DNA from: a virus
DNA length: 53,240 bases
IMG/VR virus record: IMGVR_UViG_3300046167_000167
Coordinates: 1 to 53,240 of that record
Reading direction: 5' to 3' (one strand)
The notes under the pieces are model-generated. The model was not told the DNA's origin. It did no database searches and was given only the letters and a program-made list of their open reading frames with translations. A program made the translations under genes and the position numbers. Shown piece by piece: positions 20,477-45,411 of this stretch (positions are counted from its first letter, which is position 1; every line of letters begins with the position of its first letter).

Positions 20477-22877
20477 GACAGAGGCCGCAAGAGTACGCGC
20501 AGGTATAGCTTCAGGCGGCTACAAAAAGAAGACAAATCCTTTTCAGGGTTTTGTAGATGAATTAGCTTACGGCTTAAAAAAACAGGACGAAGAGAAGCGT
20601 CAGGAAGAGCGAGTTAAACGTCAGGAAGCTAGGGTTGCTGCACGGGCTACTAAGGCCAAACAGGATGCCGAGGATAAGCGCGAAAGAGAACGTGAGCAAC
20701 TAGCAAACTTCTATTTTACGAGTACTGGGCAAGATGCTAGTCCTCAAAATAAATCTGCAATTATGAGCGTCATTAGGGGCGGTAACTTTACCGACTTCTC
20801 TGATTTAGAAGCTCATATGAAGCAGTATAGCACTTACAGTAAAGGTACTGTTCCATCTATGGAAGTAGCTCCCGGCGAAGTTCCATTTGATATGTTGCCT
20901 GAGAGCGATGTGGATACGCAGACGCAAGAGATACTTAAACAGGAAAAAGGTGCAGGTACTATAGAATTTGGCGGTAGCCGAGGAAAAGACGTACTAACTA
21001 TGGCGCTTGATGAAGTTCGCTTTGAGCTTAGTGACCCCTCTATTACTTCAGAACGTAGGGCAGAGCTAGAACGTAGACTTGCTTCTCTGACTGAAGCCAA
21101 AGAGTATATTGGGACAGAAATGTTCCATCCCGATGGTAGAAAGTCTACACCCCGAAATGCAGAAGAAGAAGCAGATCTTAGCTCACAGGGCTTTGTAACA
21201 ATAGAGCCTGCGGCCAAGAAAGATTATATTGGGACAGAAATGTTCCATCCCGACGGTAGAAAGTCTACACCCCGAAATCCAGAGGAAGAAGCAGATCTTA
21301 GATCACAAGGCTTTGTAACAATAGAGCCTGCGGCCACGAAAGACTTTAAAGACATACCATTTTATGGAAAAGACGGCGCAACTGTAGTAGCTACCGATGC
21401 GGAAATGGCACAGCAATATCAACAAAGCCCAGAGTGGTCCCGCGAAAAGCCGGGTAAGCCTGTACCGTTTATTGAAAGAAAAATGTACCATCCAGATGGC
21501 CGTTCTTTTGAAGTTAAAACTGCACAAGACTTAACAGAAGCTTTGGCCGACGGGTTTGTTAAAATTCAACCTGCGGACAAACCAGATTTTGTAAGACAAA
21601 CTCTTTATTTAGACGGGGCAGAAATTACGCCCAGAGACGAAGCACAGGAAAAAATTTATTTAGACAAAGGTTATCTACCTGAAAAACCTGCTAATCACGG
21701 AAAGGGTTTCCAGCCACGATTTGTTTTCGATAATAATACAGGAGGTAAGGTAAAGGTCTTCACCCAAGCCGATTTGAATGAAAGACTTGACCAAGGCTTC
21801 ACTGTTGAAGAGCTACCTAGACCAAAAGATTTTGGTGATGTTATGCTGTATAACGGACGGCAGTCGATAAATGTTGATAATATAGATGACTTAAATAAAT
21901 ATTTAGGTCTTGGGTTTAGTAAGGTTAATCCCGGCCCAGAGCAAAAATATATTAAGCGTAAATATTATAAAGACGGCCAAGAACAGGATGTTTTAGATCA
22001 ACAAAAACAGGATGAATTAGAGGCAGATGGTTGGAGCGCAATTAAACTAGATGATACCGCCCAGATTATGGCAGATCTAGGAATTGATCGTAAGACTGCG
22101 GCGCAAATTAAAAACGGTGTACTTAAAGTATCTACCAACTTTGCAGGTCAGCCTATAGTCATTGACATCAGTCAGGGTACTTCTGAGCAAGTTTCCTCTG
22201 GAAATCCTACGGAACAACAAAACAATTTGGACAGCCTCGATGCTGCACTGAGTCAAGTCAATCCAAATTGGAAAGATACTCTCCGTTTGGAAATAGTTGT
22301 AGATGGTAAAACGGTAGTTGTTACGCCCGAACAAATTCAGAACAATGAATCTTTTAAAATACAAGTAGAAGACTTAACGGGCCTAGAAGGAGCATTTGGT
22401 CTGGGTGGTGCGCTTAACAAGCTTGCAGGTAAAGCTGGTGATATATTTGGGGTAGAATTTCAGTCCGAGCAAAACAAAGCAATTACCTTTATGAGCAATC
22501 TTCGCCTGAATACTCTTATCAACCTAGCAGCCGCTACCGCTGGAGGTCTACGAGATAGTGTTTGGAACAAGCAACAAATTATTGCAACTCTACCTGAACC
22601 CGCCCGTGTGTTTGAGGGTCCAATTGAAGCTAGAAACAAGACTGTTGAAACTCTTCGTAGTATTCAAACAAGTCTAAAACTTCTCGACAGGAACATTAAT
22701 TCTGGACAAATTGCAAAAGCTCAACTTTCACAGAGTACAATTACAAGAGCTTCTTTAAGGGAATTAGAGAAAACATATCTTACGGTGTTGGAGGCTTTTG
22801 AGGGTTCAGTTGAGCCAGTTGCTCTGCCTGACTCCTTTATATCAACCCCAAATAAAACATCTGGAGAAACCGACTAA
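20466..22877 (+). CDS. Large virion protein with tandem PDGR-type repeats
   Basis: 803 residues. The N-terminal 80 are Lys/Arg/Glu-rich coiled coil (EEKRQEERVKRQEARVAAR). Residues about 210-540 are built of roughly seven repeats of 38-45 residues with the plan MYHPDGR...(about 15)...L.x.GFVxIxPA.K. The first two repeats are nearly identical, the later ones diverged. The C-terminal third is helical. No enzyme motif is seen. It overlaps the previous gene and joins the next by TAATG. A structural, perhaps ejected, protein is likely. The repeat family is not one I can name. Confidence 0.65.
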   Translation: MSFKTEAARVRAGIASGGYKKKTNPFQGFVDELAYGLKKQDEEKRQEERVKRQEARVAARATKAKQDAEDKREREREQLANFYFTSTGQDASPQNKSAIMSVIRGGNFTDFSDLEAHMKQYSTYSKGTVPSMEVAPGEVPFDMLPESDVDTQTQEILKQEKGAGTIEFGGSRGKDVLTMALDEVRFELSDPSITSERRAELERRLASLTEAKEYIGTEMFHPDGRKSTPRNAEEEADLSSQGFVTIEPAAKKDYIGTEMFHPDGRKSTPRNPEEEADLRSQGFVTIEPAATKDFKDIPFYGKDGATVVATDAEMAQQYQQSPEWSREKPGKPVPFIERKMYHPDGRSFEVKTAQDLTEALADGFVKIQPADKPDFVRQTLYLDGAEITPRDEAQEKIYLDKGYLPEKPANHGKGFQPRFVFDNNTGGKVKVFTQADLNERLDQGFTVEELPRPKDFGDVMLYNGRQSINVDNIDDLNKYLGLGFSKVNPGPEQKYIKRKYYKDGQEQDVLDQQKQDELEADGWSAIKLDDTAQIMADLGIDRKTAAQIKNGVLKVSTNFAGQPIVIDISQGTSEQVSSGNPTEQQNNLDSLDAALSQVNPNWKDTLRLEIVVDGKTVVVTPEQIQNNESFKIQVEDLTGLEGAFGLGGALNKLAGKAGDIFGVEFQSEQNKAITFMSNLRLNTLINLAAATAGGLRDSVWNKQQIIATLPEPARVFEGPIEARNKTVETLRSIQTSLKLLDRNINSGQIAKAQLSQSTITRASLRELEKTYLTVLEAFEGSVEPVALPDSFISTPNKTSGETD
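21105..21344 (+). repeat. Recent 120-bp in-frame tandem duplication
   Basis: Copies at 21105-21224 and 21225-21344 differ at only about seven positions by eye and encode 40 residues each (starting YIGTEMFHPDGRKSTPRN). They are the youngest pair in the degenerate repeat array of the surrounding gene. Confidence 0.9.
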
Positions 22878-25800: not shown

Positions 25801-26323
25801 TGCAGAGACCCCAGACATCCAGAAAAACATTGCTCGACTAGCTGGTGCTAACGCTGGTGTACTGTTTGGCTCTGGTAATGCCAGCCTACAGGCAGCGGCC
25901 ATTGGTTCTGCATTCTTCAAGAAATACATCGATCAGTTTCCTTTAGGTAAACAGGCTGTAGAAATGCAAAATCTACTTAAACAGCCGAAGCTGCTTGCCA
26001 GTATGTTCTCCAAAAACCCGACACTAAGGAAGACCGCGTTCCAATCTGCAAAAGAGTATTCGTTGAGGTTGAAAGAACTAGGTATCTCCGGCTCAGTTTC
26101 TGCCGCATCATCCGCTGCGGTCAATAAAGTAGGAGAAAGTATGAGTACTATGCGCACTGCCTATCCCAGTGCCGTCACAGGTAATACTCAAGATCAGACA
26201 AACCCAACAGTAAGCATAGACGATCAAATGATGGACTTGAACCTTGTAAATGCACCAACTGCTTACGATGTTTTTGGTGAAGGTAACCCGCTAATCTATG
26301 ACGGAAACGGAAATGCACGATAA
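22877..26323 (+). CDS. Giant internal virion / ejection-type protein
   Basis: 1148 residues, the largest gene and the last of the late operon, as is usual for podovirus internal core proteins that enter the cell with DNA. Residues about 75-95 (AAIAGAGTGLTNLIGLPVDI) and 225-275 are Gly/Ala-rich, membrane-interacting in appearance. The middle (residues 320-620) is helical. Residues 650-780 form a Gly/Pro/Asp-rich linker. The remainder is helical again. I see no lytic transglycosylase or other catalytic motif. It starts by TAATG overlap with the gene before. Confidence 0.65.
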   Translation: MANEIDVGLIKKFRSDGASDQEILDILVKDGGGTLNVNEDVLDLQAAIEAGVNSSDLLDFITSGKQIRVDIDSGAEAAIAGAGTGLTNLIGLPVDILNSTQQAIEGGVRKGINYAAGTELSTNPEDYLFSSTKPFGGAESIRSGIETVVNPVERAVGLPETKFVSREEVPDDYRGYYTAGRVVGENLAPTAIALKAAKSGIGLSNPMMQGIRNNPKAFLTGEAAATTGAASAAATAEVLDFGDNPYVMAGAEILGALVGGNAPTIAKYSPASMAYQGVKSLGNQVMKGLSSDAARMGAYEQILKAADQGRTSLLKEAEVAAKNGDAELANSLRAEAELYTVERMRSDIEAALALGENTPEAVSRMSVGNLTTNPVLQSMQKEMMGQSPQFRQETMNTANEAISGILEVSELLARAGNTAAAQALRTRAYSSMIDATLANATGNVAEAMKAVMGSDKAAASVLAQKTLFSAKTNMREMETYLWGRIDGGQVVSGDAISEVIDKIYSDKLLDGMTIAGGGQIDEAINAMSQKIKSGKGLSVSEILKFRSIMLSNSRKAGASDDYFQAGLFDELAGAGIDELNKLEGAAGDAVDLARGFSVQLNKRFTRYFTKDALSTEKLGGTSIRDSELLEEGFNAGGDQANNKFQDLREASEFPDEVAPGVDAIRARDAADADAGSLPAPEGGPTGGRDVATNEGVIYPENTSYPTGQAGEGFTTDDGTVIFPPEGSQDGSRLDEMFNRPDGATYNRNTAEAPDEEFVLNEGGDPNQQALTTEADNTPISLGDDMSAAQEEFLRGKVRELAGIDNVITPEALTTFMENNQKLIAEFPNLRDDILSIHDAQRTADRLVEDLSLAANNEKLPEAIGQALATNTPIETFSKLAKEAITPDAKIDFRNAAMDELFRGAVKSDGSPDMLKISENLLKPVSGRKGDVNVLDVMVSNGILEASEMEAIVNLLSEGLVIEKSIRDPKIFDRAIAETPDIQKNIARLAGANAGVLFGSGNASLQAAAIGSAFFKKYIDQFPLGKQAVEMQNLLKQPKLLASMFSKNPTLRKTAFQSAKEYSLRLKELGISGSVSAASSAAVNKVGESMSTMRTAYPSAVTGNTQDQTNPTVSIDDQMMDLNLVNAPTAYDVFGEGNPLIYDGNGNAR

Positions 26324-26325
26324 GC

Positions 26326-26362
26326 AAAAAAAGAAACCCCCGCCAACCAAAGCAGGGGTTTC
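26326..26362 (-). terminator. Rho-independent terminator of the leftward replication operon
   Basis: Read on the - strand, GAAACCCC (26362-26355), a 14-base loop, GGGGTTTC (26340-26333) and a run of Ts (26332-26326). It lies beyond the + strand terminator, so each convergent operon is stopped only after passing the other's hairpin. Confidence 0.85.
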
Positions 26363-26390
26363 CAACCAACGAACAAGGCGACCAATCTTT
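26362..26390 (+). repeat. Orphan copy of the AACCAACC...ACCAATC leader motif
   Basis: CCAACCAACGAACAAGGCGA followed by CCAATCTTT, closely matching the leader before the 40.0-kb gene, yet no start codon follows it here. It lies between the two convergent terminators. Confidence 0.55.
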
Positions 26391-26422
26391 AGCCCTATTC
26401 GAAATTAATTTAGTGTTTTTAT

Positions 26423-26456
26423 GCTCTCAGGTCAAGTGATCTGGGGGCTTTTTTTA
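26423..26456 (+). terminator. Rho-independent terminator of the late operon
   Basis: GCTCTCAG (26423-26430), a ten-base loop, CTGGGGGC (26441-26448; eight pairs including two G-T), then seven Ts. It ends 16 bases before the stop codon of the ribonucleotide reductase gene on the other strand. Confidence 0.8.
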
Positions 26457-26472
26457 TAAGAAAATAAGATAT

Positions 26473-28377
26473 TTAAGCAGAGATATCTACTAATTCACAA
26501 CTGTCTCCACTACACGCCATAGTCTGCATAGCGACAGTAGTATCTTCCTTTTCGTAGTTCGATAAGTCCGCCCAATTAATCTTTTCAGGCATAACAGATA
26601 GGAGAGTTTCATAGTCAGTTTTAGAACAATCTTGGTACGGTGGTTGCTGGTAAGTATGTTCAGCAAATGGCAGAAAGCTAACCCCACTCATTTCATCAAA
26701 ATTCTTATAGACAAATGTTCCCACATCAAACCACTCATTTTTTTTGACGTTGATAGTTACGCTTGGTTTATGTTCCGCAAAATGCCTCTGGTACATCAGC
26801 CACATTTCAAGCTGCTCAATAGCCGTCATATCTGCGGTGCAGACCGCTCCTTCAGGAGACTTAACTGGAAAGCTGAATACAGTCGTTTGATCCGGCTTAA
26901 ACGCCTCTGGCTCATTGGGAATCCCTTGATCTTTCATAAACTGTGTTAGTGGGTCTTTGTTATCACCACGAACAGTACGAATATAATAGGGGCTGTGCCT
27001 AGCATGAATACCAGAGGCGGAATCAACAAGTTGTGAAACCGTGCCGGAAGGCTTAACGCAAGTGATAGCAGCAGCGACAGGGATGCCAAGGCGTTCAGCC
27101 CACTCAGCATTAGTGTTAATAGCAACATCTTTTAAATGCCTCAAAGTTTTATCAAGTCCACTATTAGCGGTAGTCATTAGAGGGTTATCCATAATACCTG
27201 TGAGGCTGACACCAAGCAGACGCTCATCTGAGGTATTCTTTTCCCATATCTTCCGTAAGTAGGGAAACTTTGTATAGGTAGCCTGTATAGTACCTAAGAT
27301 CGTAGCTAGGCGTACCTTCCGCTCTAAGTCTTTCAGCGTATCTGTAGCCCGGATTACTACTTCACTGAGGTTGCAAAACTGACTTGGTAATAAAATTATT
27401 TCAGAACAAGGGTTTGTACCAAATTCTGCATCTGATTTGCGGCGACCATTTAGACCTGCCTGCACCTTTGCTGCCTGTCGATTGAAGATGCCCCGTTCAC
27501 CTGAACCGGACTCCACCAGAGCCATCCACTCACGCATAAATGACATACTGTCAGGCTTCTCAGAGTAGGCCACAGAGTTGTTAGCCAGCCCTCGATGCGG
27601 ATTTTGCTCATACCACTTACCGCTCTTGGCGTGGCGCATACGGTCATCTGACAAATTACTTAATGAAATCATTGCACTACGACGAACGCCGCCTACGACT
27701 ACTATTTCACCGACCTTACACATGAGGTCATGGCACTCAATCGAAGACAGTTTACGACCTTGTGCTTCCTTAAAAGTGCTAACTGCAAAGTTAAACAGAT
27801 CGATCAGAGGAGCGGGTCCAGATGCCCTGCCCCCAAAGGTTTTAAGCCGCGCCCCCGCTGGCCGTACCTTTTCAACATTCCACTTAGGAATTTCACCAGC
27901 CCAGAGGAGTGCCAGAACTTGCCTGAAAGCCTTAGCCCAGCCTTCCTTACTGTCCTTAACCATGACGATAGTGTCGCTGTCGAAGAGTGTAGGGACTTCG
28001 GGAAGTTTATCGATGCACTGACGCTCTACACTGAAGCCCACCCCAGTTCCGCACAGCAAGATGAACATAGCCTCATCGAAGGCCTTCGGGTCATCTACGG
28101 CTAGGTAGCTACAGTTATACATACAGGTGTTATCCCGCGCTGCCGCTGGACCCGCTGTCATTAGTGACCGCATACTGGGCATTACCTCCAGACTGAGGAT
28201 AGCCTGTTCGATATCTTTTATGTAGCTATCGTCACCCGCAACAGGTTTTACGATGTTTTCCATGTAGCGAGATACTGTCTCACCCCAAGTCTCCCGGCGA
28301 CCTTCTTCCTCAATCCACCGTGCGTAACGGCTGGTTGCGATAAAGGTTTGATAATCGGTTGGTAAATAGTTATTCAT
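26473..28377 (-). CDS. Adenosylcobalamin-dependent (class II, monomeric-type) ribonucleotide reductase
   Basis: 634 residues. It reduces ribonucleotides to deoxyribonucleotides for phage DNA synthesis. The active-site block N322-P-C324-S-E326 with C335 eleven residues on, and C89 in the N-terminal CMYNCSYL segment, match the thiyl-radical Cys, Glu, Asn and redox Cys pair of monomeric B12-dependent reductases such as the Lactobacillus leichmannii enzyme. The C-terminus CSGDSCELVDIS supplies the shuttle pair C622/C627. It is about 100 residues shorter than the Lactobacillus enzyme. No second subunit or NrdH is present, in line with a one-protein class II system whose cofactor must come from the host. 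It is the last gene of the leftward operon and abuts the pyrophosphohydrolase gene. Confidence 0.9.
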   Translation of the reverse strand: MNNYLPTDYQTFIATSRYARWIEEEGRRETWGETVSRYMENIVKPVAGDDSYIKDIEQAILSLEVMPSMRSLMTAGPAAARDNTCMYNCSYLAVDDPKAFDEAMFILLCGTGVGFSVERQCIDKLPEVPTLFDSDTIVMVKDSKEGWAKAFRQVLALLWAGEIPKWNVEKVRPAGARLKTFGGRASGPAPLIDLFNFAVSTFKEAQGRKLSSIECHDLMCKVGEIVVVGGVRRSAMISLSNLSDDRMRHAKSGKWYEQNPHRGLANNSVAYSEKPDSMSFMREWMALVESGSGERGIFNRQAAKVQAGLNGRRKSDAEFGTNPCSEIILLPSQFCNLSEVVIRATDTLKDLERKVRLATILGTIQATYTKFPYLRKIWEKNTSDERLLGVSLTGIMDNPLMTTANSGLDKTLRHLKDVAINTNAEWAERLGIPVAAAITCVKPSGTVSQLVDSASGIHARHSPYYIRTVRGDNKDPLTQFMKDQGIPNEPEAFKPDQTTVFSFPVKSPEGAVCTADMTAIEQLEMWLMYQRHFAEHKPSVTINVKKNEWFDVGTFVYKNFDEMSGVSFLPFAEHTYQQPPYQDCSKTDYETLLSVMPEKINWADLSNYEKEDTTVAMQTMACSGDSCELVDISA

Positions 28378-28805
28378 TAATTGGTCTCCACTAAGTGTTT
28401 TAAATTTGCTGGTTTATAATTCGGTCCCTTTAGAACTTTCCCTGAAGAGTTCTTTAGAGGTTTTCCGTCTACGCCTAATTTGCTCATGTTTGAGGCCATA
28501 ACTAAGCGGAAGCCTTCTTCTACATCCCACCCATACGTCACGCAGTAACCAATTACGGTAACCAAAATATCCATCAGTTCCTTGAACATATTTGCGGGAT
28601 TATTTTGGCTACAGCTTTCATCAAAAGCCTCTCCGTATTCCTCTTGAATTAAACCCCAGCGGAAATCCTCTAGGTCTTTATCTTTAAGCCACGGCTGGTT
28701 GATCGGCTGATCCATGCGTAGGGCAAAGTCAGTCACAAGTTGCTGCATGGTGGATAAAGGCGGGTTGTATACTTTAAAGGCGTCAATATCCTCCTGTGTA
28801 ATCAT
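28377..28805 (-). CDS. MazG-like nucleotide pyrophosphohydrolase
   Basis: 142 residues from the ATG at 28805, preceded by AGGAG and overlapping the TGA of DUF3310 by ATGA; a longer upstream frame is less likely. The motif EEYGEAFDE...KELMDILVTVIGY has the ExxE...ExxxD pattern of the all-alpha NTP pyrophosphohydrolase (MazG) superfamily. The tail MASNMSKLG...GKVLKGPNYKP is typical of the phage branch of the family. It probably hydrolyses nucleoside triphosphates or lowers alarmone signals. Its pairing with ribonucleotide reductase fits nucleotide-pool control. Confidence 0.8.
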   Translation of the reverse strand: MITQEDIDAFKVYNPPLSTMQQLVTDFALRMDQPINQPWLKDKDLEDFRWGLIQEEYGEAFDESCSQNNPANMFKELMDILVTVIGYCVTYGWDVEEGFRLVMASNMSKLGVDGKPLKNSSGKVLKGPNYKPANLKHLVETN

Positions 28806-29044
28806 TTTTCTATCTCCTGAATTAATCGGTCTAAGTACCAGCGGCATTTTTTGAGATCTTCTAGGCCGTTTTTGTATGGCCATCTCCAGAGGTACTTAAA
28901 AACAGTCTGCCAACAGTGCGCCTGATGCGGAGTTACTAAGACTTTAGGGGGTATTGTACCGCCTTCAGTCATAGCCTTCATGGCGTCGATGCACTCAATG
29001 GTATGATTGTAGTGGGACGGGCTGTTCACCATATCCGAAGCCAT
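28802..29044 (-). CDS. DUF3310 family protein
   Basis: 80 residues. The opening SPSHYNHTIECIDAMKAM and the later KYLWRWPYKNGLEDLKKCRW are the signature of DUF3310, a small phage family often beside replication or nucleotide genes. Biochemical role unknown to me. Its ATG overlaps the stop of the preceding gene and its stop overlaps the next start, so it is translationally coupled. Confidence 0.85.
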   Translation of the reverse strand: MASDMVNSPSHYNHTIECIDAMKAMTEGGTIPPKVLVTPHQAHCWQTVFKYLWRWPYKNGLEDLKKCRWYLDRLIQEIEK

Positions 29045-35388: not shown

Positions 35389-36156
35389 TTAATAATCACA
35401 ATTAAGTACCTTAGTTATTCGTTTAACTGATAGGCACTTTAGATCCTCGCTTGTGAGTCTTACAAATAGCTTAGTTCCAAGCGCCTTACTAATGCGTAAT
35501 GCCTTTTTAGATGCATCCTTGTCAAGAACTAAATATTTTGTGGAATATAAATGCAGAGAATTTTTAATTGCTGGAGTGACATTAGTACCAAGCAACGCCA
35601 CACCAACTAATCCATCAATCCGACTCACACTACAGGCGCTAGGGGCATCCTCAACTAAGACTGCGGTTTCACCTGTACCAATGTGTATTCCTTCGGGAAG
35701 TGATCCATATGTAATCCACTTAGGTCCGTATGCTTTGAGTGATCTACCTACTGCACCTTCTCCATTACAGAATAACACCCGGTCTTCAGCGGGAGCATAT
35801 CGGACATCTACCAAACCGCTTTCGTATGCTTCTAGGCTGTTGTTCTTTTCTAGGTAGTCGATGGCTGGTTGATGGTTTCTGACTGATGTAGTCATCGAAG
35901 GTACAGGCTTTCTAAAAGCAGTCTTCATGCTAACTTCATTTGCTAGATAGTTTTTGACTGCCTGAAGGTTACGTTTACCTGTGTAAATTCCTTTGGCAGA
36001 GCAACTGGCTCTGTAACAGTTCCACATTAACTTACCATCAATCTTTGATAGAGCTAACTTCTTTGGTTGATAGCAAAATGGACAGGTTATTACTTTTGTA
36101 ACACCTTCTTGGATAGGTATATCTTTTATTATCTGTAGTTGTTCTTGATAGGTCAT
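35389..36156 (-). CDS. DNA primase (zinc ribbon plus TOPRIM)
   Basis: 255 residues. An N-terminal zinc ribbon uses C25, C28, C47 and C52. The TOPRIM fold shows LVEDAPSA (E169, D170) and the LVLDKDASKKAL segment (D212, D214). This is the layout of the primase half of T7 gp4-type proteins, here without the helicase, which is a separate gene. It primes lagging-strand synthesis. It is the first gene of the leftward replication operon and follows a possible promoter. Confidence 0.85.
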   Translation of the reverse strand: MTYQEQLQIIKDIPIQEGVTKVITCPFCYQPKKLALSKIDGKLMWNCYRASCSAKGIYTGKRNLQAVKNYLANEVSMKTAFRKPVPSMTTSVRNHQPAIDYLEKNNSLEAYESGLVDVRYAPAEDRVLFCNGEGAVGRSLKAYGPKWITYGSLPEGIHIGTGETAVLVEDAPSACSVSRIDGLVGVALLGTNVTPAIKNSLHLYSTKYLVLDKDASKKALRISKALGTKLFVRLTSEDLKCLSVKRITKVLNCDY

Positions 36157-36201
36157 TTACTAGCCGTTGGTTATACTGCCCCTCCAAAGGGACAGCGTCA
36201 G

Positions 36202-36330: not shown

Positions 36331-36369
36331 CTCAATTGGTCGTAGGTTCGATCCCTACCGCCGGAGCCA
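36331..36369 (+). other. Probable attP: 3' end of a tRNA gene without the rest
   Basis: The 39 bases contain a T-arm (GTAGG-TTCGATC-CCTAC) followed by CGCCGGA, G and CCA, i.e. acceptor strand, discriminator and CCA end. The upstream half of a tRNA is absent. Together with the bases before the T-arm (ATTGGTC) and discriminator G it looks most like an alphaproteobacterial tRNA-Asn 3' end. A tRNA 3' fragment about 0.85 kb from an integrase gene is a standard phage attachment core. The surrounding 314-base gap is AT-rich on its left side. Confidence 0.75.
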
Positions 36370-38360: not shown

Positions 38361-38628
38361 TTCTGTAGTCTTGCCAAAGCAGACTGTAGGAGATTTCGTG
38401 GTACTGGCAGTAGCCGATAGCAGCATACATAGTCTTTGCATCCGTACTATCGTCTATCTCTGCATAGATACCGTCTTCCCGCATTTCTAACGTGAACCAG
38501 TAGTTCTCATCATCGTGCCAGTGTAGCTGAGTAGCTTCCTTAGTGGTGCTACAGTGCATTTGACCAATAACCTCAGTCAGACCGCCAATAGACCATATAA
38601 ACTTGCTGAATACTGCTTCCTTAGACAT
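38341..38628 (-). CDS. Small hypothetical protein of the integrase operon
   Basis: 95 residues from ATG 38628 (MSKEAVFSKFIWSI), rich in Trp/His/Tyr in the middle (LHWHDDENYWFTLEM). It overlaps genes on both sides by eight bases, and both junctions are copies of the same 20-base sequence, so it ends GLSNG while its upstream neighbour ends GLSNV. It is placed like an excisionase or regulator but has no recognised motif. Confidence 0.65.
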   Translation of the reverse strand: MSKEAVFSKFIWSIGGLTEVIGQMHCSTTKEATQLHWHDDENYWFTLEMREDGIYAEIDDSTDAKTMYAAIGYCQYHEISYSLLWQDYRKGLSNG

Positions 38629-38640
38629 TAGACAGACCCT
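38621..38640 (-). repeat. Gene-junction repeat, copy 2
   Basis: TTAGACATTAGACAGACCCT at the stop/start junction of the 85- and 95-residue genes; see copy 1. Confidence 0.85.
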
Positions 38641-38878
38641 CATACTGCTCAATTGCGTAGAGCATCTTCAGCATTATATTTACGTCCCGCTTTCGGAACT
38701 CTAGGTGGCGTGTGGTCTGGCAGACAACGTCATCACCGTGTTCAAAGTTCTGTGCGTGGTAGTCCTGCGCCAGAGCTTTAATCTCTTCCAAAGTGAAGCA
38801 CACCTTAACGTCTGATGGGCTAGATACTTCTGCTATGCTGCGTGTAGGTTCAACGCAATTTCCTAATTCAAAGTTCAT
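38621..38878 (-). CDS. First gene of the integrase operon, hypothetical
   Basis: 85 residues from ATG 38878 (MNFELGNCVEP), chosen because the repeated AACCAACCAACAAGGACCAAT leader with its AAGGA ribosome site stands right before it. The C-terminal half is helical and charged (FRKRDVNIMLKMLYAIEQYE). No helix-turn-helix is evident. It is transcribed from the operator-bearing promoter at 38912-38940 and overlaps the next gene. Confidence 0.65.
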   Translation of the reverse strand: MNFELGNCVEPTRSIAEVSSPSDVKVCFTLEEIKALAQDYHAQNFEHGDDVVCQTTRHLEFRKRDVNIMLKMLYAIEQYEGLSNV

Positions 38879-38881
38879 GTT

Positions 38882-38903
38882 ATTGGTCCTTGTTGGTTGG
38901 TTA
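38882..38903 (-). promoter_or_regulatory. AACCAACC leader with ribosome site
   Basis: Reads TAACCAACCAACAAGGACCA-AT on the - strand, immediately before the ATG at 38878. One of six copies of this leader in the window and the only one on this strand. Confidence 0.65.
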
Positions 38904-38954
38904 ACAGGGCCATCTAACAAATAAGTTAACAGGCAGTCAAGTAAAAGTTAACAG
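38900..38954 (-). promoter_or_regulatory. Integrase-operon promoter overlaid by three GTTAACAG operators
   Basis: On the - strand TTGACT (38940-38935), 17 bases, TTAGAT (38917-38912). Three identical GTTAACAG octamers lie at 38900-38907, 38925-38932 and 38947-38954: downstream of the -10, within the spacer and upstream of the -35. Such spacing suggests a repressor or integrase/excisionase-binding array. A fourth copy, in opposite orientation, is in the noncoding DNA at 41653-41660. Confidence 0.6.
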
Positions 38955-39484: not shown

Positions 39485-39506
39485 AACCAACCAATGGAGA
39501 CCAATC
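39485..39506 (+). promoter_or_regulatory. AACCAACC leader with GGAGA ribosome site
   Basis: AACCAACCAATGGAGACCAA-TC just before ATG 39509; its presence decides that start over the upstream in-frame ATG at 39416, which overlaps the promoter. Confidence 0.65.
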
Positions 39507-39508
39507 AC

Positions 39509-39691
39509 ATGATCACTATGAACCAACTTGTGGCCATCGAAGCCGCCACACATAACCGCAAGACGCCCTCAGATATCGATGCGCTGCTTGCTACCACCTA
39601 CTTCAGCCAATCGCTGCAAGAACAGCGCGAGATGGGCGAACTGTCCCTGCCGCAGTTTATTCGTGTTCTAAAAAAGGGAGGGCAATCATAA
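39509..39691 (+). CDS. Small hypothetical protein, first of the accessory block
   Basis: 60 residues from ATG 39509 (MITMNQLVAIEAATH). Helical; contains a short TPSDIDALLATTYFSQSLQE stretch. It joins the next gene by TAATG. The coding sequence uses more G/C-ending codons than the replication genes. No family recognised. Confidence 0.6.
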   Translation: MITMNQLVAIEAATHNRKTPSDIDALLATTYFSQSLQEQREMGELSLPQFIRVLKKGGQS

Positions 39692-39900
39692 TGACACTGA
39701 TCGCAAACTACCCGACCAAAAAGAACTGCAAAGAGCATATTGGCCAGCGCCTGCACTACTTAGAGACCAGCCTGTTTGGCCCTGAGTATCAGGCGAATGG
39801 AAAGCTGACTGTTTGCAACCGCCCTCATATCACCGGGCATGGACGCGAATGGTTTGGTCAGATCGTCATGAAAGACGGCCTGATCGCCTCAGTATCGTGA
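39691..39900 (+). CDS. Small hypothetical protein
   Basis: 69 residues, starting MTLIANYPTKKNCKEHIGQR, with a beta-like C-terminal half containing HITGHGREWFGQIVMKDG. Coupled by TAATG to the gene before. No family recognised. A 118-base gap with another leader copy follows. Confidence 0.6.
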   Translation: MTLIANYPTKKNCKEHIGQRLHYLETSLFGPEYQANGKLTVCNRPHITGHGREWFGQIVMKDGLIASVS

Positions 39901-39971
39901 GGTGCGACTGTTCATAATTTGCTATGGAGCCGGATCGCTCTGGCTCGATATCCTTACAATTTTGTTTACTT

Positions 39972-39996
39972 AACCAACCAACCAACAAGACCAATC
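39972..39996 (+). promoter_or_regulatory. AACCAACC leader upstream of the DUF932-like gene
   Basis: AACCAACCAACCAACAAGAC followed by CAATC. Here it is 23 bases from the ATG at 40019, where an additional AAAGGA site serves as ribosome site, so the leader is not only a Shine-Dalgarno. Confidence 0.6.
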
Positions 39997-40018
39997 TTTG
40001 ATCGTGAAAGGATCACAA

Positions 40019-40915
40019 ATGTTAGACTTCCAAAACTTTAATCACGCCCTCGAACTGCCAACCAATATTGACTTCGCCCCAGCCTTTGAGGCCTCGCGAT
40101 TGGCAAAGCACAAATTTGTCATAAACGAAGTGACAGGCGAAGTGATCGGACACGTTGGCGACACCTTTACCTGTGCATCTCATCGTGACTTTTTCGAGGG
40201 TGTATTCAGTCAGGTGCAAGAGAACCTGACATCTGAAGACATCGAAGGTGCAGAGATCAGCTACAAGAATGGCCGCTCAAATGCATTCGCCATGATGGAT
40301 GTGCAGCTCCCTTCGGTCAGCTCTGAGATCGTCACCACCAACGGCCACACAACAAAATTGGCCCAGCGTATCATCGCACTGCACTCTATCGATGGCGGCA
40401 GCGGATCGAATACTACGCTGTTCGGAAACATCGATAATTTTTGTTTAAACGGTCAGGTCTCCGGCGAATACTCTACAGTCCGCCGCCGGAACACTTCGCA
40501 GTTTTCAGTCGAGGCTTTTATCAAGCAACTGCGTCAGTCAAAGAATGACTTCTATCTACAATCAGAACAGCTCCAGCAATTTGCCCAGACTGAACTGGCG
40601 GACAATACAGTGAAGCGGCTGTTGGATAGTATGCTGAACACTGCCAAGCCTGATCCAGAGGCCAAGCGCCGGAACGTCGAGACCAAGGCCGATAAAATGT
40701 TCAAACTGTACCGGGATGAGGTCCAAGTGCGCGGTGCAAATAAGTTTGCTCTGGTCAGCGCGTTCTCGAATTATGCGACATATGCAGATGATCGAAACGG
40801 CTTCAACCTGCGGAACACCGCCAACAAGAATGAGACCAAGGCGACATCGATGATGGCCCGTGAGCTTGAGGTCAACAAGTGGATGTCCGACAGCCGTTTC
40901 TTGGAGGCAGCGTAA
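40019..40915 (+). CDS. DUF932-like protein
   Basis: 298 residues from ATG 40019 (MLDFQNFNHALELP); an upstream start at 39998 lies within the leader. The order of segments, an HxFVINEVTGEVIGHVGDTF strand pair, a RIIALHSIDGGSGSNTTLFG core and a FCLNGQ segment, resembles DUF932 proteins of phages and plasmids, whose function is not known to me. It is the largest protein of the accessory block. The gene is relatively G/C-rich and joins the next by TAATG. Confidence 0.55.
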   Translation: MLDFQNFNHALELPTNIDFAPAFEASRLAKHKFVINEVTGEVIGHVGDTFTCASHRDFFEGVFSQVQENLTSEDIEGAEISYKNGRSNAFAMMDVQLPSVSSEIVTTNGHTTKLAQRIIALHSIDGGSGSNTTLFGNIDNFCLNGQVSGEYSTVRRRNTSQFSVEAFIKQLRQSKNDFYLQSEQLQQFAQTELADNTVKRLLDSMLNTAKPDPEAKRRNVETKADKMFKLYRDEVQVRGANKFALVSAFSNYATYADDRNGFNLRNTANKNETKATSMMARELEVNKWMSDSRFLEAA

Positions 40916-41145
40916 TGCGCAAAATATATCAAAGCGAATTGAGCGAGTTTGTGGATTATTGCTGGGGATTTTATGGCACTGGCCAAGTCTATGATCTGGG
41001 AGCATCTCGCTCGGCAATCAGATCAGCTTGCAGGCTAGTGACCCACCGCAAAGATATTCCATTTGAAGGTTACACTTATGACCGTGAATATGTTCGCCAG
41101 ATTTTGGAGAGCATTGGCTATGAAGAAAAAGAGGGAGAAGTGTAA
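40915..41145 (+). CDS. Small hypothetical protein
   Basis: 76 residues from ATG 40915 (MRKIYQSELSEFVDYCWGFY). The pattern of an aromatic N-terminal helix, an Arg-rich helix (SRSAIRSACRLVTHRK) and an acidic end suggests a small folded, possibly nucleic-acid-binding protein. Coupled to both neighbours by TAATG. No family recognised. Confidence 0.6.
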   Translation: MRKIYQSELSEFVDYCWGFYGTGQVYDLGASRSAIRSACRLVTHRKDIPFEGYTYDREYVRQILESIGYEEKEGEV

Positions 41146-41522
41146 TGGGTTTGCATATACAAGTTTATCGCCCGTTTTTGGATGGTGTTGATTGCACAAA
41201 TGGTGGGGTCTCATCCTACGCCACCAGCCTATGCTTGGTGAATGCCGAAGGTCCATTCGAGCCATCTGCGGATGTCCCGGCAGTGATGTTGGTTCCCGGC
41301 AACGTGCCGGACAGTGTGAAAATTGTGCCGCTCGATGACGATGGTCAGCCTCGCAGTGGAACTATGTTCGGAGGTAATCTGGCTCGATCGTCTGACAGTC
41401 GGTTCGGTCAATTGCTGAGAACTATGCTGCATCCGATTGCGGCAGGTTCATACACATCTGGTAGTGTGGCCATTCACGATAGAATTGAGACAGCGGCTGA
41501 GGCTGAATTTTACAGCCGCTGA
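41145..41522 (+). CDS. Hypothetical protein
   Basis: 125 residues, beta-rich in appearance, starting MGLHIQVYRPFLDGVDCTNG with several Gly/Pro turns. It ends the first operon of the accessory block, right before a terminator. No family recognised. Confidence 0.6.
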   Translation: MGLHIQVYRPFLDGVDCTNGGVSSYATSLCLVNAEGPFEPSADVPAVMLVPGNVPDSVKIVPLDDDGQPRSGTMFGGNLARSSDSRFGQLLRTMLHPIAAGSYTSGSVAIHDRIETAAEAEFYSR

Positions 41523-41545
41523 TTAGACACTAATTTCTCCCAACT

Positions 41546-41574
41546 GGCCCCGGCAAATGCTGGGGTCTTTTTTT
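41546..41574 (+). terminator. Rho-independent terminator within the accessory block
   Basis: GGCCCCGGC (41546-41554), loop AAAT, GCTGGGGTC (41559-41567; two G-T pairs), then seven Ts. Confidence 0.85.
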
Positions 41575-41808
41575 GTCTTAGACCGCCCCAAAAATAGCAA
41601 AATCGCCGTACATTGCCGAAACGATCTTTTTTGATCTCAGATATGGCAGAAACTGTTAACGCACTCAGTGGCGCTCTCAGGCGCTCTCAGGCAATTTAGC
41701 TAAAATCTTATCTGTCACTTTATTAGTTGTTAAATTGCACCACTTACTTTAGTGTGGGGTCACGGGCAGTGTGCCTGACAACCAACCAACCAACCGGAGA
41801 CCAATCAA
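41575..41808 (+). promoter_or_regulatory. Noncoding control region for the second accessory operon
   Basis: It holds a CTGTTAAC octamer (41653-41660, like the integrase operators), a CTCAGTGG element (41664-41671) shared with the 43.8-44.3 kb repeat region, a tandem GGCGCTCTCA repeat after it, a weak promoter pair TTATCT-17-TAAATT (41708-41736), and the AACCAACC leader with GGAGACCAATC at 41780-41806 just before ATG 41809. Confidence 0.45.
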
Positions 41809-42069
41809 ATGACACAACCAAACTTAAATCTACTGAATGAAATGGCCGCTGACATCTTTGGCGGATACACAAAAGAAGTCGAACTGCGCAAAGTCAAAAA
41901 AGGTGGATATTTCAAACGCAAACCTACCGCAGCCGCTGAATATATTCGCAACCACTATAACCGCAAAGATCAGTTTGGACCTGCAAATTACTCATGTTCT
42001 GACAGCGAGGATATGAACCGGGAGATATTCCTGAAGCCTTCCACAATCGTTTATGTGGAGGCCTACTGA
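41809..42069 (+). CDS. Small hypothetical protein
   Basis: 86 residues, basic (VELRKVKKGGYFKRKP), starting right after the leader. The compact order of a helical N-terminus and a KxxxxAAEYIRNHYNRKD segment suggests a small DNA- or RNA-binding protein, but no family is recognised. Joined to the next gene by overlapping TGATG. Confidence 0.6.
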   Translation: MTQPNLNLLNEMAADIFGGYTKEVELRKVKKGGYFKRKPTAAAEYIRNHYNRKDQFGPANYSCSDSEDMNREIFLKPSTIVYVEAY

Positions 42070-42389
42070 TGCGCTTATATGTTAACAGCAAAGGCCAGTG
42101 GGCAGGGACGCAGGCAGAGGCCAAAAAGATCGACGCCCACCTGATCGATGTGCCGACAGATAAGCCGAGCCTGATTGCATTCCTAAACGGGCAGAAAAAG
42201 ACTGTGGCCGTCGAGGCTGTCGAGCCGACACCTGTCCCATCGAAAAAGCAGAGGCAGCACATCAGCCATGAACTGTTCGATGTGGCCAATCGTGCCACCA
42301 TCCAAGAACTTCAGACTGTGGTCTATCGCTATCTGATGCAGGTGGATGATGCCCTCGATCTGAATACCAAAAACCAACCAACCAAATAA
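42069..42389 (+). CDS. Hypothetical protein
   Basis: 106 residues. A beta-like N-terminus (MRLYVNSKGQWAGTQAEAKK) is followed by a linker and a helical C-terminal half (RATIQELQTVVYRYLMQVDD). No family recognised. Another leader copy starts inside its end. Confidence 0.6.
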   Translation: MRLYVNSKGQWAGTQAEAKKIDAHLIDVPTDKPSLIAFLNGQKKTVAVEAVEPTPVPSKKQRQHISHELFDVANRATIQELQTVVYRYLMQVDDALDLNTKNQPTK

Positions 42390-42402
42390 TCGGAGACCAA
42401 TC
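42372..42402 (+). promoter_or_regulatory. AACCAACC leader with GGAGA ribosome site
   Basis: AACCAACCAACCAAATAATC followed by GGAGACCAATC, overlapping the end of the preceding coding sequence and ending just before ATG 42405. Confidence 0.65.
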
Positions 42403-42404
42403 AA

Positions 42405-43121
42405 ATGAACCGCCAAGAAATCTTAAAGAAACTAAAAGCATTCGCTCAGCGCACTGTTGAAAATGGATGCACTGAGGCTGAGGCAATTGCAGCGGCCAAG
42501 GCTATGCAGTCACTGCAAGAAAAGTATGACTGCACACTCACAGAGCTAGACATCTCCCTGACTGAATATGTCAAAGATAAAATAACTTTAGGCACAAAAA
42601 TAAAGCATCCCGTCTGGGGTGCGCTGTTTGGTTTGCAGGTATTCACTGGGGTGCGCCTCGTTTCATATGGAACGAAGCTCACAGTCTTTGGACAACAGCA
42701 CTGCGTGGACAATGCCATCTACCTGATCAGCCTATTGCAATCATCTATGGAGCTAGAGTTTTTGAGATATAAAAATTCGGCAGATTATGCGGAGCAGAAA
42801 TTTTACCATCACGCCAGATCGATCCGCTCTAGCTTTATGAATGGAATGGCATCCCGCCTTAGTTCCCGTTTGCTGGCCATGCATAATGAGAGCCGCCAAA
42901 ATGTTGAGCAGCCGACAGGATCAAACGGCACGGCCTTGGTGGTCATGGCAGATAAGGCGCTCGATACCGCCTACAGGAAGGCCTTCCCCAATCTCAGATC
43001 AGGACGCAGTCAGACCACCAGCCGTGTTGCAGGGGCATCGTCTGCCGGACGCTCTGCCGCCGACCGTGTAGGCCTTCGCAGTGGGGTCTCAGGTGGCGGA
43101 TCGCAGAGGCTGTTAGGTTAA
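42405..43121 (+). CDS. DUF2786-like protein
   Basis: 238 residues. The N-terminal 40 (ILKKLKAFAQRTVENGCTEA, then EAIAAAKAMQSLQEKYDCTL) match the DUF2786 pattern of a short helix pair with EA.AA..A..L..KY. The middle is a helical domain with HPVWGALFGLQVF; the last 40 residues are Ser/Arg/Gly-rich and probably disordered. Function is unknown to me; such proteins occur on plasmids, phages and other mobile elements. It joins the next gene by TAATG. Confidence 0.65.
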   Translation: MNRQEILKKLKAFAQRTVENGCTEAEAIAAAKAMQSLQEKYDCTLTELDISLTEYVKDKITLGTKIKHPVWGALFGLQVFTGVRLVSYGTKLTVFGQQHCVDNAIYLISLLQSSMELEFLRYKNSADYAEQKFYHHARSIRSSFMNGMASRLSSRLLAMHNESRQNVEQPTGSNGTALVVMADKALDTAYRKAFPNLRSGRSQTTSRVAGASSAGRSAADRVGLRSGVSGGGSQRLLG

Positions 43122-43231
43122 TGGATCTGGTCAAAATACTGGGGCGGCTGACCGCAGCCGTCCAATTCGTTGTGGTGATTTTAGTCATCGCCAATTTCAT
43201 AAACATCGCAATTAAGTGGAGCATCATCTAA
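43121..43231 (+). CDS. 36-residue membrane protein
   Basis: MDLVKILGRLTAAVQF leads into a hydrophobic stretch (VVVILVIANFINIAI) and a short end. The start overlaps the previous stop (TAATG) and its stop overlaps the next ATG in the same way, arguing for a real gene. A single-pass inner-membrane peptide; role unknown. Confidence 0.6.
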   Translation: MDLVKILGRLTAAVQFVVVILVIANFINIAIKWSII

Positions 43232-43563
43232 TGCTAGTACAAACAAAAAACAGAATGGACCTTCTCCCTGCATCTGATCGCTGGCCAACGTCTGGCGATT
43301 ATTCTGCCAGCAATTGGAAGGCCTCGACCGTCACACTGGGGCATATCTTTTTGGGTGATCCACCGCAAAAAATGAAAGACGCAATTCACAATACTTCCGA
43401 CGCTGATCTGGTGTCAGGCTTCGGAGCAACCAATCGTCTGATCTGCTACTATCGTGTGCATCCTGTGACGAACAAGGATGAGATCGAGCATCAAGAGATC
43501 AGAAAAAACTTAATGGAAAACGAACTATGTATTCGGCTGAGGGCCGGGAGGGTAGAGCAATGA
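43231..43563 (+). CDS. Hypothetical protein
   Basis: 110 residues from ATG 43231 (MLVQTKNRMDLLPASDRW), chosen over an upstream ATG because of the TAATG coupling. Mixed alpha/beta composition. No family recognised. Its stop overlaps the next start by ATGA. Confidence 0.6.
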   Translation: MLVQTKNRMDLLPASDRWPTSGDYSASNWKASTVTLGHIFLGDPPQKMKDAIHNTSDADLVSGFGATNRLICYYRVHPVTNKDEIEHQEIRKNLMENELCIRLRAGRVEQ

Positions 43564-43742
43564 TAGCAGTGTGCAGAGATGAATGCGGTGATGAGCAACT
43601 TGTGGACTGCTTAGGCCAGGACACAGGCAATATTCCTGGTGAGTGGACCTTTAGATATTGGAGGCAGTGGTCTCCACTGCATCTAGCTTATGATCGCCAG
43701 CAAGGTGACGGCGATTATTACAATCCCGAAGAGGATTGTTGA
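43560..43742 (+). CDS. Small hypothetical protein
   Basis: 60 residues from ATG 43560 (MIAVCRDECGDEQLVDCLGQ), with four Cys, three near the start, and many Trp/Tyr (WTFRYWRQWSPLHLAY). The ATGA overlap sets the start. It is the last gene of the accessory block and precedes a terminator. Confidence 0.6.
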   Translation: MIAVCRDECGDEQLVDCLGQDTGNIPGEWTFRYWRQWSPLHLAYDRQQGDGDYYNPEEDC

Positions 43743-43772
43743 GGTAGCATCGATCATAACAAACGAATGAAG

Positions 43773-43795
43773 CAGGCCTCCGGGCCTGTTTTTTT
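43773..43795 (+). terminator. Rho-independent terminator ending the accessory block
   Basis: CAGGCC (43773-43778), loop TCCG, GGCCTG (43783-43788), seven Ts (43789-43795). Confidence 0.9.
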
Positions 43796-43827
43796 GTGCC
43801 TGACGTTAAAAGTAGGATGCACCTGAG

Positions 43828-43854
43828 AGGCTCAGAGAGAGCCGCACAGTGACG
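43828..43854 (+). repeat. 27-bp direct repeat, copy 1
   Basis: AGGCTCAGAGAGAGCCGCAC followed by AGTGACG; 25 of 27 bases match copy 2 at 43958-43984, 130 bases on. Confidence 0.9.
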
Positions 43855-43957
43855 CAACAGCTCAGTGGCATATTAGTGCAGTTAATAGTTTACCCCACTG
43901 AGAGCGGCTGTGCGTGGCTGTGTGATGGTGGGCTATTCGCGGCCAACACCTAGTGAC

Positions 43958-43984
43958 AGGCTCAGAGAAGGCCGCACAGTGACG
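43958..43984 (+). repeat. 27-bp direct repeat, copy 2
   Basis: AGGCTCAGAGAAGGCCGCAC followed by AGTGACG; partner of 43828-43854. Confidence 0.9.
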
Positions 43985-44040
43985 TTAGCAGCCAGCAATG
44001 GGTCGTAGGTGGTGGCGTAGGAATGGCGGCTCAGGTGGAC

Positions 44041-44118
44041 GGCTAGAGTGGACGGCTAGAGTGGACGGCTAGAGTGGACGGCTAGAGTGGACGGCTAGAG
44101 TGGACGGCTGGGGTAGAC
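44041..44118 (+). repeat. 13-bp tandem repeat array (iteron-like)
   Basis: Five perfect copies of GGCTAGAGTGGAC (44041-44105), then a degenerate copy GGCTGGGGTAGAC (44106-44118) and a partial match just before. The 13-base period breaks any reading frame, so it is not coding repeat. Confidence 0.95.
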
Positions 44119-44581
44119 ATCGAGGCAGGTGGCTGAAGGTATACAATCGCTCCCTTCGCTCCCTTGTCAGGTGATCGTCAGACCTCTGAGCAGGCGCAGC
44201 GCGTAGGCTCGATCGCTGGCAGATCGTGACATTTATCTCACAGTATTTTGCTTGTGGCAGATTGTGCCATAATTAATTTTATCGACATCTTTTAAATAGC
44301 TGTAATCTTTTGACAATTACCCAATCGACTGCCAACTGCTCAGTGGTAGGTTTAAGTATTACCCAATAAAAACAACAGCCTAAGATATTCTGCTATGATC
44401 TAATCTTTCTCAGCGAGATCTCGGCCACCCCCGGCGACTGCCACCCCCCTCCCCCCCGGTGTCGTATACAACCACGGCCTATTTTGGGAATTTTGCAACT
44501 GTAAATGGCCCCAAGCCGACTTCTAGGTACACGATATTCGTAAAGGCACTAGATGCAGTGGTTTTTAGGTATACAAGCACC

Positions 44582-44610
44582 TTGTAAAGTATTTAGCTAA
44601 CTGCTATACT
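44582..44610 (+). promoter_or_regulatory. Promoter at the start of the late-side genes
   Basis: TTGTAA (44582-44587), 17 bases, TATACT (44605-44610), leading into the gene at 44655. Confidence 0.6.
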
Positions 44611-44654
44611 AAGCCACCAAGTACCAATCTAGTTGTAGCGACTAGGACAACCAC

Positions 44655-44999
44655 ATGAGAGATCATCCCGCAGAGGATACTGGGGCAGACGGCAGACTGT
44701 TTGATGCTGGAATACCCTTCTACATCGATCACGACTTACAGGTAATCAACAGCGGCACACTGTTTGTGCAGTCTACTATTGAAGTTGGGGACATAGACAG
44801 GCTGACTGTCTTAAAACCTTTCTATGAGATAATCACTGACATCCTCGACAACGTAGAAGATGACTACGGTGAGCTATATGCCATAGCAAATGAACTTAAT
44901 AGAGAAGCGGAAAGGCTACGGGAATTAGCACAGAGGATAGAAGACAGCGACCAGAGTGTAGCTGATCTTTTTGATACTGCCTATGACTCAACAGCTTAG
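44655..44999 (+). CDS. Acidic hypothetical protein
   Basis: 114 residues, very acidic, with a helical C-terminal half (ELNREAERLRELAQRIEDSD). ATG is preceded by AGGA. It overlaps the start of the nuclease gene by 17 bases. No family recognised; the low pI and the gene order leave open a DNA-mimic or partner role for the nuclease, which is speculation. Confidence 0.6.
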   Translation: MRDHPAEDTGADGRLFDAGIPFYIDHDLQVINSGTLFVQSTIEVGDIDRLTVLKPFYEIITDILDNVEDDYGELYAIANELNREAERLRELAQRIEDSDQSVADLFDTAYDSTA

Positions 45000-45411
45000 T
45001 CTATTTCCATTAGACGAAGTACTTTCTGAGGAAGTTCTCAGTAAGAAGTGCATAGCCTGCGGATGTGATAAGGTCATTAGTGATTTCCCCATTCTACGCA
45101 GAGGTAGAGGTGAGCGGGATACTATGAGGTCTGTCTGCAAGGAATGCCACAAAGTAGCCTGTGCTATAGTGGCAGACTACAGAAATACTAACCCCTTGCC
45201 GGACGACTTTTGCTGTCCTCTATGTAGTAGAAGTATGGAAGACTTCCAAAAGGAAGGACGCTATAGGACACAGTCTCCTTTTTCAGTGGATCATAATCCT
45301 GAGACTCTAGAAGTACGCGGCTGGATATGTAACCCATGCAATAGTTCGATGGGTCTAGCTAAACATTCAGTAGACGTACTGAGCAACATGATAGAGTACC
45401 TACAAGCATAG
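44983..45411 (+). CDS. Endonuclease VII-like (HNH-type) recombination nuclease
   Basis: 142 residues from ATG 44983. Two zinc knuckles are visible: an N-terminal one (CIACG...CKECHK) and the catalytic one (CCPLC...CNPCN). The core FSVDHNPETLEVRGWICNPC plus NSSMG matches the DH...RG.LC..CN...G signature of T4 gp49-like endonuclease VII proteins, which resolve branched DNA before packaging. Located just ahead of the head genes, it fits clearance of junctions or a free-standing homing-type nuclease. Confidence 0.8.
   Translation: MTQQLSLFPLDEVLSEEVLSKKCIACGCDKVISDFPILRRGRGERDTMRSVCKECHKVACAIVADYRNTNPLPDDFCCPLCSRSMEDFQKEGRYRTQSPFSVDHNPETLEVRGWICNPCNSSMGLAKHSVDVLSNMIEYLQA

Follow-up and report, generated by a model that had tools for sequence, protein, structure and literature searches.

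A start-site leader common to early genes of an HMO-2011-type roseophage and a predicted antisense RNA that may repress them

Two described phage systems resemble the one analyzed here. In cluster K mycobacteriophages, start-associated sequences and extended start-associated sequences (SAS/ESAS) are short repeats over the ribosome site of non-structural genes only, in one orientation and after an upstream gap; a promoter and an inverted repeat precede a subset of them, and some genomes carry a gene-less copy (PMC3203893, PMC11373665). The CI antisense RNA of satellite phage P4 is a small phage RNA that pairs with the phage's own early leaders and shuts off the replication genes; it is processed from a leader transcript, exerts its effect by terminating transcription at two sites, and provides a precedent for antisense-RNA immunity (PMC4825925). 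Here, we analyzed the IMG/VR virus record IMGVR_UViG_3300046167_000167 (a single record of 53,240 bases, all of which is referred to as the window), in which a block of early genes at 39509-43742 contains a repeated start-site leader and a predicted small RNA gene lies at a distance from it.

We consider, with a probability of about 0.7, that the block is a rightward early operon and that the leader-tagged early genes would be repressed by one predicted antisense RNA covering their ribosome sites. This reading builds on features established by sequence comparison, namely synteny, the common leader, a conserved RNA gene with covariation, conservation of its predicted promoter and terminator, co-occurrence of RNA element and leader, and lineage-matched complementarity between them. 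Similar to SAS, the window leaders are located a few bases before the start of non-structural genes, at the head of a translation unit. However, the 13-bp SAS consensus GGGATAGGAGCCC is not matched by the window leader consensus AACCAAC...AGGACCAATCAAATG, the phages are unrelated, and no antisense RNA has been described in cluster K, whereas window-type leader hairpins covary and the gene-less copy is a conserved RNA gene. By position and sequence, the window leaders are thus analogous to SAS and not a member of that family. In contrast to the P4 CI RNA, the window RNA would be a separate gene with its own predicted promoter and several dispersed targets, overlapping the ribosome site.

The window virus is, as judged from its sequence, an HMO-2011-type roseophage with an integrase, near CRP-738. 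This Roseobacter phage, an HMO-2011-type phage of 53,826 bases (PMC9038755), was the sole megablast match to the right half of the window among 50,697 phage records. The DNA polymerase of the window is 75.6% identical to that of CRP-738 and 35-57% identical to those of nine other HMO-2011-type isolates. The common gene order of the type (integrase, primase, helicase, DNA polymerase, RNR, late, and packaging genes) was also observed, and the genome plan, the integrase, and the replication, packaging, and late genes resemble those of the phages described by Qin et al. 2022 (PMC9038755).

The leader at early gene starts

The leader has the form AACCAAC-N-AGGA-CCAATCA-ATG, in which an A/C-rich AACCAAC is followed by a Shine-Dalgarno sequence (AGGA or GGAG), CCAATCA, and the start codon. 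It is found at genes that are uncoupled from the upstream gene and is missing from genes whose start is coupled to the preceding stop codon. A repeat search detected a 34-nt leader common to the genes starting at 39509, 41809, and 42405, together with an opposite-strand copy at the leftward gene starting at 38878; the DUF932 gene also has the leader. All leader copies in the window belong to early and replication genes, and CCAACCAACC occurs there in four exact copies, compared with 0.06 expected. The strict long leader pattern was found in 21 viral stretches, 16 of which encode homologues of window genes, but was absent from the 84,980 bacterial and archaeal species genomes searched, whereby a host ribosome site was ruled out as its identity.

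The leader differs by lineage. CRP-738 and others have AACCAAC...AGGACCAATCAAATG, the relatives L009 and L012 have AACCAACT...GGTAACCAA, and CRP-3, CRP-212, and CRP-235 have CTAACTTGGAG...GACCAAATG, TCTAACTGGAG...TGACCAAATG, and TAAACTTGAAAAGGAAATGACCAAATG, respectively. Unbiased k-mer enrichment upstream of gene starts independently recovered the leader words in many leader genomes; for CRP-1 and HMO-2011, it yielded nothing beyond ordinary Shine-Dalgarno-type words. Hairpin ends adjoin leaders more often than they adjoin AACCAAC sites without a following gene (p = 1.8e-6). At one orthologous leader, one hairpin pair showed five pair types in ten sequences and was always paired, with the other pairs invariant. 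Several leader hairpins begin ~12 nt past a −10-like hexamer, near the predicted transcription start, although a placement of the hairpins at the transcription start is suggestive only. Another start-site repeat, AACCAACAGAAACCATNAAGGACCAATGANATG, is common to three viral contigs without window homologues (L201, L205, and L210), which may represent a further phage group with a leader of this kind.

The predicted antisense RNA gene and its match to the leaders

A gene-less copy of the leader is located at 26364-26387, in the interval between the late operon, which ends at 26323, and the stop codon of RNR at 26473. A search with this copy returned 37 IMG/VR viral stretches, in each of which homologues of the same late genes, replication-side genes, or both lie next to it. 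A covariance model of the element, built from six sequences and giving rough E-values, located it at the expected site in each of the ten leader-bearing phages tested, among them the distant CRP-3, CRP-212, and CRP-235 (E 5e-6 to 4e-41), and in none of the three leader-less phages CRP-1, CRP-345, and HMO-2011. In an alignment fitted to the model, which is a bias in its favor, 22 of 30 element pairs changed on both sides, and all covariation measures exceeded those of 500/500 shuffles and all slid controls; the 9-bp hairpin of the RNA showed double changes in 9/9 pairs. Rfam 15 contained no family matching at the gathering threshold, and the best sub-threshold match of the RNA region was rnk_pseudo (27.7 of 55 bits).

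A G-U pair on one strand corresponds to A-C on the other, and wobble pairs were thus counted on both strands of each hairpin. The ratio of G-U cells on the plus strand to those on the minus strand was 51:1 for the H3 hairpin, which is therefore the late terminator on the plus strand, and 0:22 for H1, which is therefore a minus-strand terminator. For the central hairpin H2, which carries the leader complement, it was 3:18; this hairpin therefore appears to act on the minus strand, a pattern that points to a minus-strand RNA. On this strand, a predicted sigma70-like promoter is present in all 21 elements: TTGACC or TTGACT is separated by 17-18 nt from a −10-like hexamer, and the H2 stem begins 1-8 nt after the latter. 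Downstream, the order was likewise the same in 21/21: an H2 loop with UUGG (mostly UUGGUC), GUUGGUU or its lineage version, and the H1 terminator with a U-rich tail. The 21 elements thereby have the sequence features of a small RNA gene, which are its own promoter, a structured RNA with an accessible seed, and a terminator. The element is best read as a conserved RNA gene of the multi-target antisense type, not previously described; no mention of the leaders or the RNA was found in the literature on HMO-2011-type phages (PMC9038755) and the other texts searched.

The loop UUGGUC complements GACCAA of the leader, and the single-stranded GUUGGUU complements AACCAAC. When 55 gene starts in the window were ranked by predicted duplex energy, the top five were exactly the block-type leaders (−27.8 to −35.2 kcal/mol; median −18.8). 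In nine genomes, cognate RNA-leader duplexes gave −25.5 kcal/mol compared with −17.3 for the others (permutation p = 5e-5), and the similarity of element and leader sequences also followed lineage (p = 5e-5; the best of 120 permutations for five lineages). Shared ancestry contributes to these figures, but it cannot by itself keep element and leader matched in each lineage while both change.

Several points weigh against repression by this RNA. All support for the RNA and for repression is at the level of sequence. The leaders were tagged partly by definition, so the duplex ranking is not independent of their discovery, and the folding scores of single leaders were not below those of shuffles. 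The primase leader fits the linear seed only, and upstream-coupled genes are untagged, such that their control would be via coupling only. The wobble argument for H2 consists of 21 cells in related, non-independent sequences, and the other counts are not independent for the same reason. Furthermore, the −35 box and the late terminator overlap, and some of the conservation of this box may thus reflect structure; the −10 score was picked as the best of five spacings, with some hexamers weak.

Initially, we read the element as a sense-strand decoy: an RNA read from the plus strand, 3′-terminal in the late operon, would mimic the early leaders and titrate a protein or another leader-binding factor. 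The plus strand does carry the leader sequence, and the H3 structure clearly belongs to that strand; nevertheless, the seed hairpin has most of its wobble cells on the minus strand, where every element has a promoter followed by the stem. The decoy was dropped after the wobble count and the promoter check, and we now regard it as unlikely. Following a guess made in PMC11373665, DUF3310 was considered as the leader-binding factor, and a DUF3310 protein is encoded at 28805-29044 of the window. It was ruled out in this role because CRP-1, whose early genes show no leader, has DUF3310 too, and the protein thus does not track the leader. The leader could alternatively be a mere favorable ribosome-binding site or 5′ untranslated region copied among genes, and the element a pair of convergent terminators with a dead leader copy between them. 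This too is unlikely: both terminators exist and the leaders do contain a Shine-Dalgarno sequence, but a dead copy would not retain a hairpin with covariation in all of its pairs, a promoter, and, in five lineages, the matching version of the leader, and the conserved AACCAAC and CCAATCA fall outside the Shine-Dalgarno sequence.

The early block and its surroundings

The features of the window are listed in Table 1. The block comprises 11 genes, all on the plus strand (39509-39691, 39691-39900, 40019-40915, 40915-41145, 41145-41522, 41809-42069, 42069-42389, 42405-43121, 43121-43231, 43231-43563, and 43563-43742), with stop/start overlaps between many neighbors. The tight packing described in a first-pass annotation was thus confirmed, with 11 genes instead of about twelve. 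The same annotation named a DUF932-like and a DUF2786-like product. DUF932 (PF06067) was above the Pfam cut-off in 40019-40915 (35.2 vs 23 bits, E = 1.5e-8), whereas DUF2786 (PF10979) was below it in 42405-43121 (17.5 vs 23.9 bits), where DUF7168 was above it instead (35.4 vs 25.5 bits, E = 9.9e-9). The remaining genes belong to PHROG families of unknown function or had no match. The AlphaFold model of the DUF932 protein, with a mean predicted local distance difference test score (pLDDT) of 70, showed no significant fold match in PDB, and its structural matches in BFVD include other DUF932/TIGR03299 proteins; the DUF2786/DUF7168 model (pLDDT 56) was too poor for a structure search. As for promoters and terminators of its own, the block contains one strong terminator (41546-41567), and lineage-conserved −35/−10 pairs precede 39509 and 41809, but generic promoter patterns matched less often than in shuffled sequence (9 vs 15.8).

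The block has more G/C-ending codons than the replication genes, as had been stated (GC content 0.496 vs 0.456; GC content at third codon positions, GC3, 0.549 vs 0.468). Among equal-sized pieces, codon-usage distance was largest for the block and the pieces overlapping it (0.172; next independent piece, 0.128), although by GC content itself the block was only in the top 8%. However, a foreign character of this composition was not confirmed. A GC3 bias was observed at the same place in CRP-738 (0.558 vs 0.421), CRP-3 (0.650 vs 0.544), and CRP-212 (0.611 vs 0.495), and was almost absent in CRP-235 (0.445 vs 0.436). It thus recurs in three of four isolates, mostly over differing genes, and is therefore a property of the position and not of one import.

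In CRP-738, gp55-65 are homologues of the block in identical place and order. CRP-3, CRP-212, and CRP-235 have other small genes at this position, yet with a DUF932 gene, and DUF932 adjoins the integrase in CRP-1 and HMO-2011; it is thus in the early module of all six isolates checked. Near-identical phages lack single genes: L014 lacks 40915, with the loss extending exactly from TAATG to TAATG, and also 42069, and L006 lacks the 42405 gene, with a junction at another TAATG. Two of the three deletion junctions examined were at TAATG, the third was at a short homology, and none was at a leader. By these comparisons, the block is an early module that keeps its position while its genes turn over one by one at stop/start overlaps. 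The term accessory is apt as far as this rapid exchange of genes is concerned.

The block had also been proposed to be an imported anti-host or anti-defense island. Its composition is unlike the rest, and close relatives vary in gene content; nevertheless, the module is conserved in place in every related isolate checked, with DUF932 in all, and the bias follows position. PADLOC defense models gave no match at E<=0.1 for 10 block proteins (10/11 covered), which, together with the lack of a PDB fold match for DUF932, leaves an anti-defense role unsupported by sequence or fold. Synteny thus agrees with core early genes conserved among relatives, and composition still differs from the remaining genome. 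An import origin is largely refuted, and the island is quite improbable. Still less probable is that the leaders are mainly short recombination sites for swapping gene cassettes, comparable to the boundary sequences of lambdoid phages; the block does gain and lose single genes, but the deletion junctions are not at leaders, and the leaders vary by lineage in step with the RNA. Overall, the first-pass annotation was partly confirmed in its observations and partly supported in its interpretation. It was right that the block holds new biology, but the novelty is regulatory, comprising the shared leaders and the RNA that apparently targets them. A search of bacterial genomes for a provirus with the window-type DUF932 returned just five distant matches, in metagenome bins.

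Table 1. Positions of the leaders, the predicted RNA gene, and neighboring features in the window
Feature	Position	Strand	Remarks
Predicted promoter of antisense RNA, TTGACC-N17-TAAATT	26407..26435	-	-35 at 26435, -10 ending 26407
Predicted antisense RNA gene, ~75 nt	26326..26401	-	
Loop seed GAUUGGUC in the 9-bp stem-loop of predicted RNA	26387-26380	-	
Linear seed GUUGGUU of predicted RNA	26370-26364	-	
Terminator hairpin (H1) of predicted RNA (plus U-run)	26363-26332	-	
Terminator of late structural operon	26423..26448	+	Apical part contains the -35 box of the antisense RNA
Leader of gene 39509 (AACCAACCAATGGAGACCAATCACATG)	39485..39511	+	Upstream promoter TTGATT-N17-TATACA and short hairpin GGGCGGCTCTGGCCGTT
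Leader of DUF932 gene (AACCAACCAACCAACAAGACCAATC ... ATG)	39972..40021	+	
Hairpin CGGGCA-GTG-TGCCTG and leader of gene 41809	41763..41811	+	
Leader of DUF2786/DUF7168 gene	42372..42407	+	
Leftward early promoter TTGACT-N17-TTAGAT and leader of gene 38621-38878	38876..38931	-	
Primase leader	36154..36200	-	TATAAG -10, hairpin CTGTCCC-TTTGGAG-GGGCAG, AACCAAC; weak copy without GACCAAT part
Late genes	up to 26323	+	
Replication genes and integrase	26473 to ~39200	-	
Rightward early module (flagged block, begins 39509), 11 genes	39509..43742	+	Open reading frames, composition, Pfam, synteny with CRP-738 gp55-65 and IMG/VR relatives
Gene-free region, early block to late small genes	43743..44654		Conserved in relatives

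The gene-free region (~0.9 kb) was also found in CRP-738, CRP-3, CRP-212, and CRP-235. Its core at ~44420-44500 (GGCGACTGCCACCCCC..TCCCC..GTATACA), retained even in the distant L009, is a candidate origin or packaging site. At 44035-44109, this region contains a 13-bp tandem repeat, GTGGACGGCTAGA, in 5.8 perfect copies, compared with two copies at most in close relatives. The endonuclease VII gene (44986-45411) has only ~31% identity to its counterpart in L004 and L006, phages that are 88-100% identical around the gene, an apparent allele replacement. A 120-bp direct duplication with 94% matches is located at 21099-21343, within a late gene. On the minus-strand side near the integrase, a tRNA 3′-end-like stretch, TTCGATCCCTACCGCCGGAGCCA (36333-36369), which also occurs in CRP-738, L009, L010, L012, and L041, is likely the attP core.

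A proposed early-gene switch

We propose that the early operon runs away from a divergent promoter region adjoining the integrase, with genes that would come and go as single cassettes. On the opposite side of the genome, a separate minus-strand gene located where the late and the replication/RNR operons converge would produce the ~75-nt RNA. This RNA would pair with AACCAAC and GACCAAT, which flank the Shine-Dalgarno sequence, thereby blocking initiation on the early mRNAs of both arms, and the whole early regulon would be silenced at once. It may act as an early-to-late switch that times the close of the early phase, and/or confer immunity in lysogens. From the conserved features described above, we infer transcription of the RNA, its pairing in the cell, repression, and the role in timing or immunity.

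CRP-3, which carries the element, integrates at a tRNA-Met gene (PMC6918029). We tentatively suggest that these phages may be a temperate marine group without a protein repressor, in which one small antisense RNA would be both master repressor and immunity factor, acting on near-identical sites across the early genes, and in which RNA and targets would have co-evolved into lineage versions. A weak helix-turn-helix match was noted for CRP-212 gp55 (L019 9717-10379), whose C-terminal end is common with CRP-3 gp56; a protein regulator may thus be present in the early module of those phages.

HMO-2011-type phages have been described as dominant in the ocean, with a broad distribution (PMC9038755). 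If the proposed reading is true, one RNA directed at a tag that recurs in many early genes would be a phage master switch of unusual simplicity, and lineage-specific versions of RNA and target would lead to lineage-specific immunity. It would also provide a testable hypothesis for the unexplained role of SAS in cluster K mycobacteriophages.

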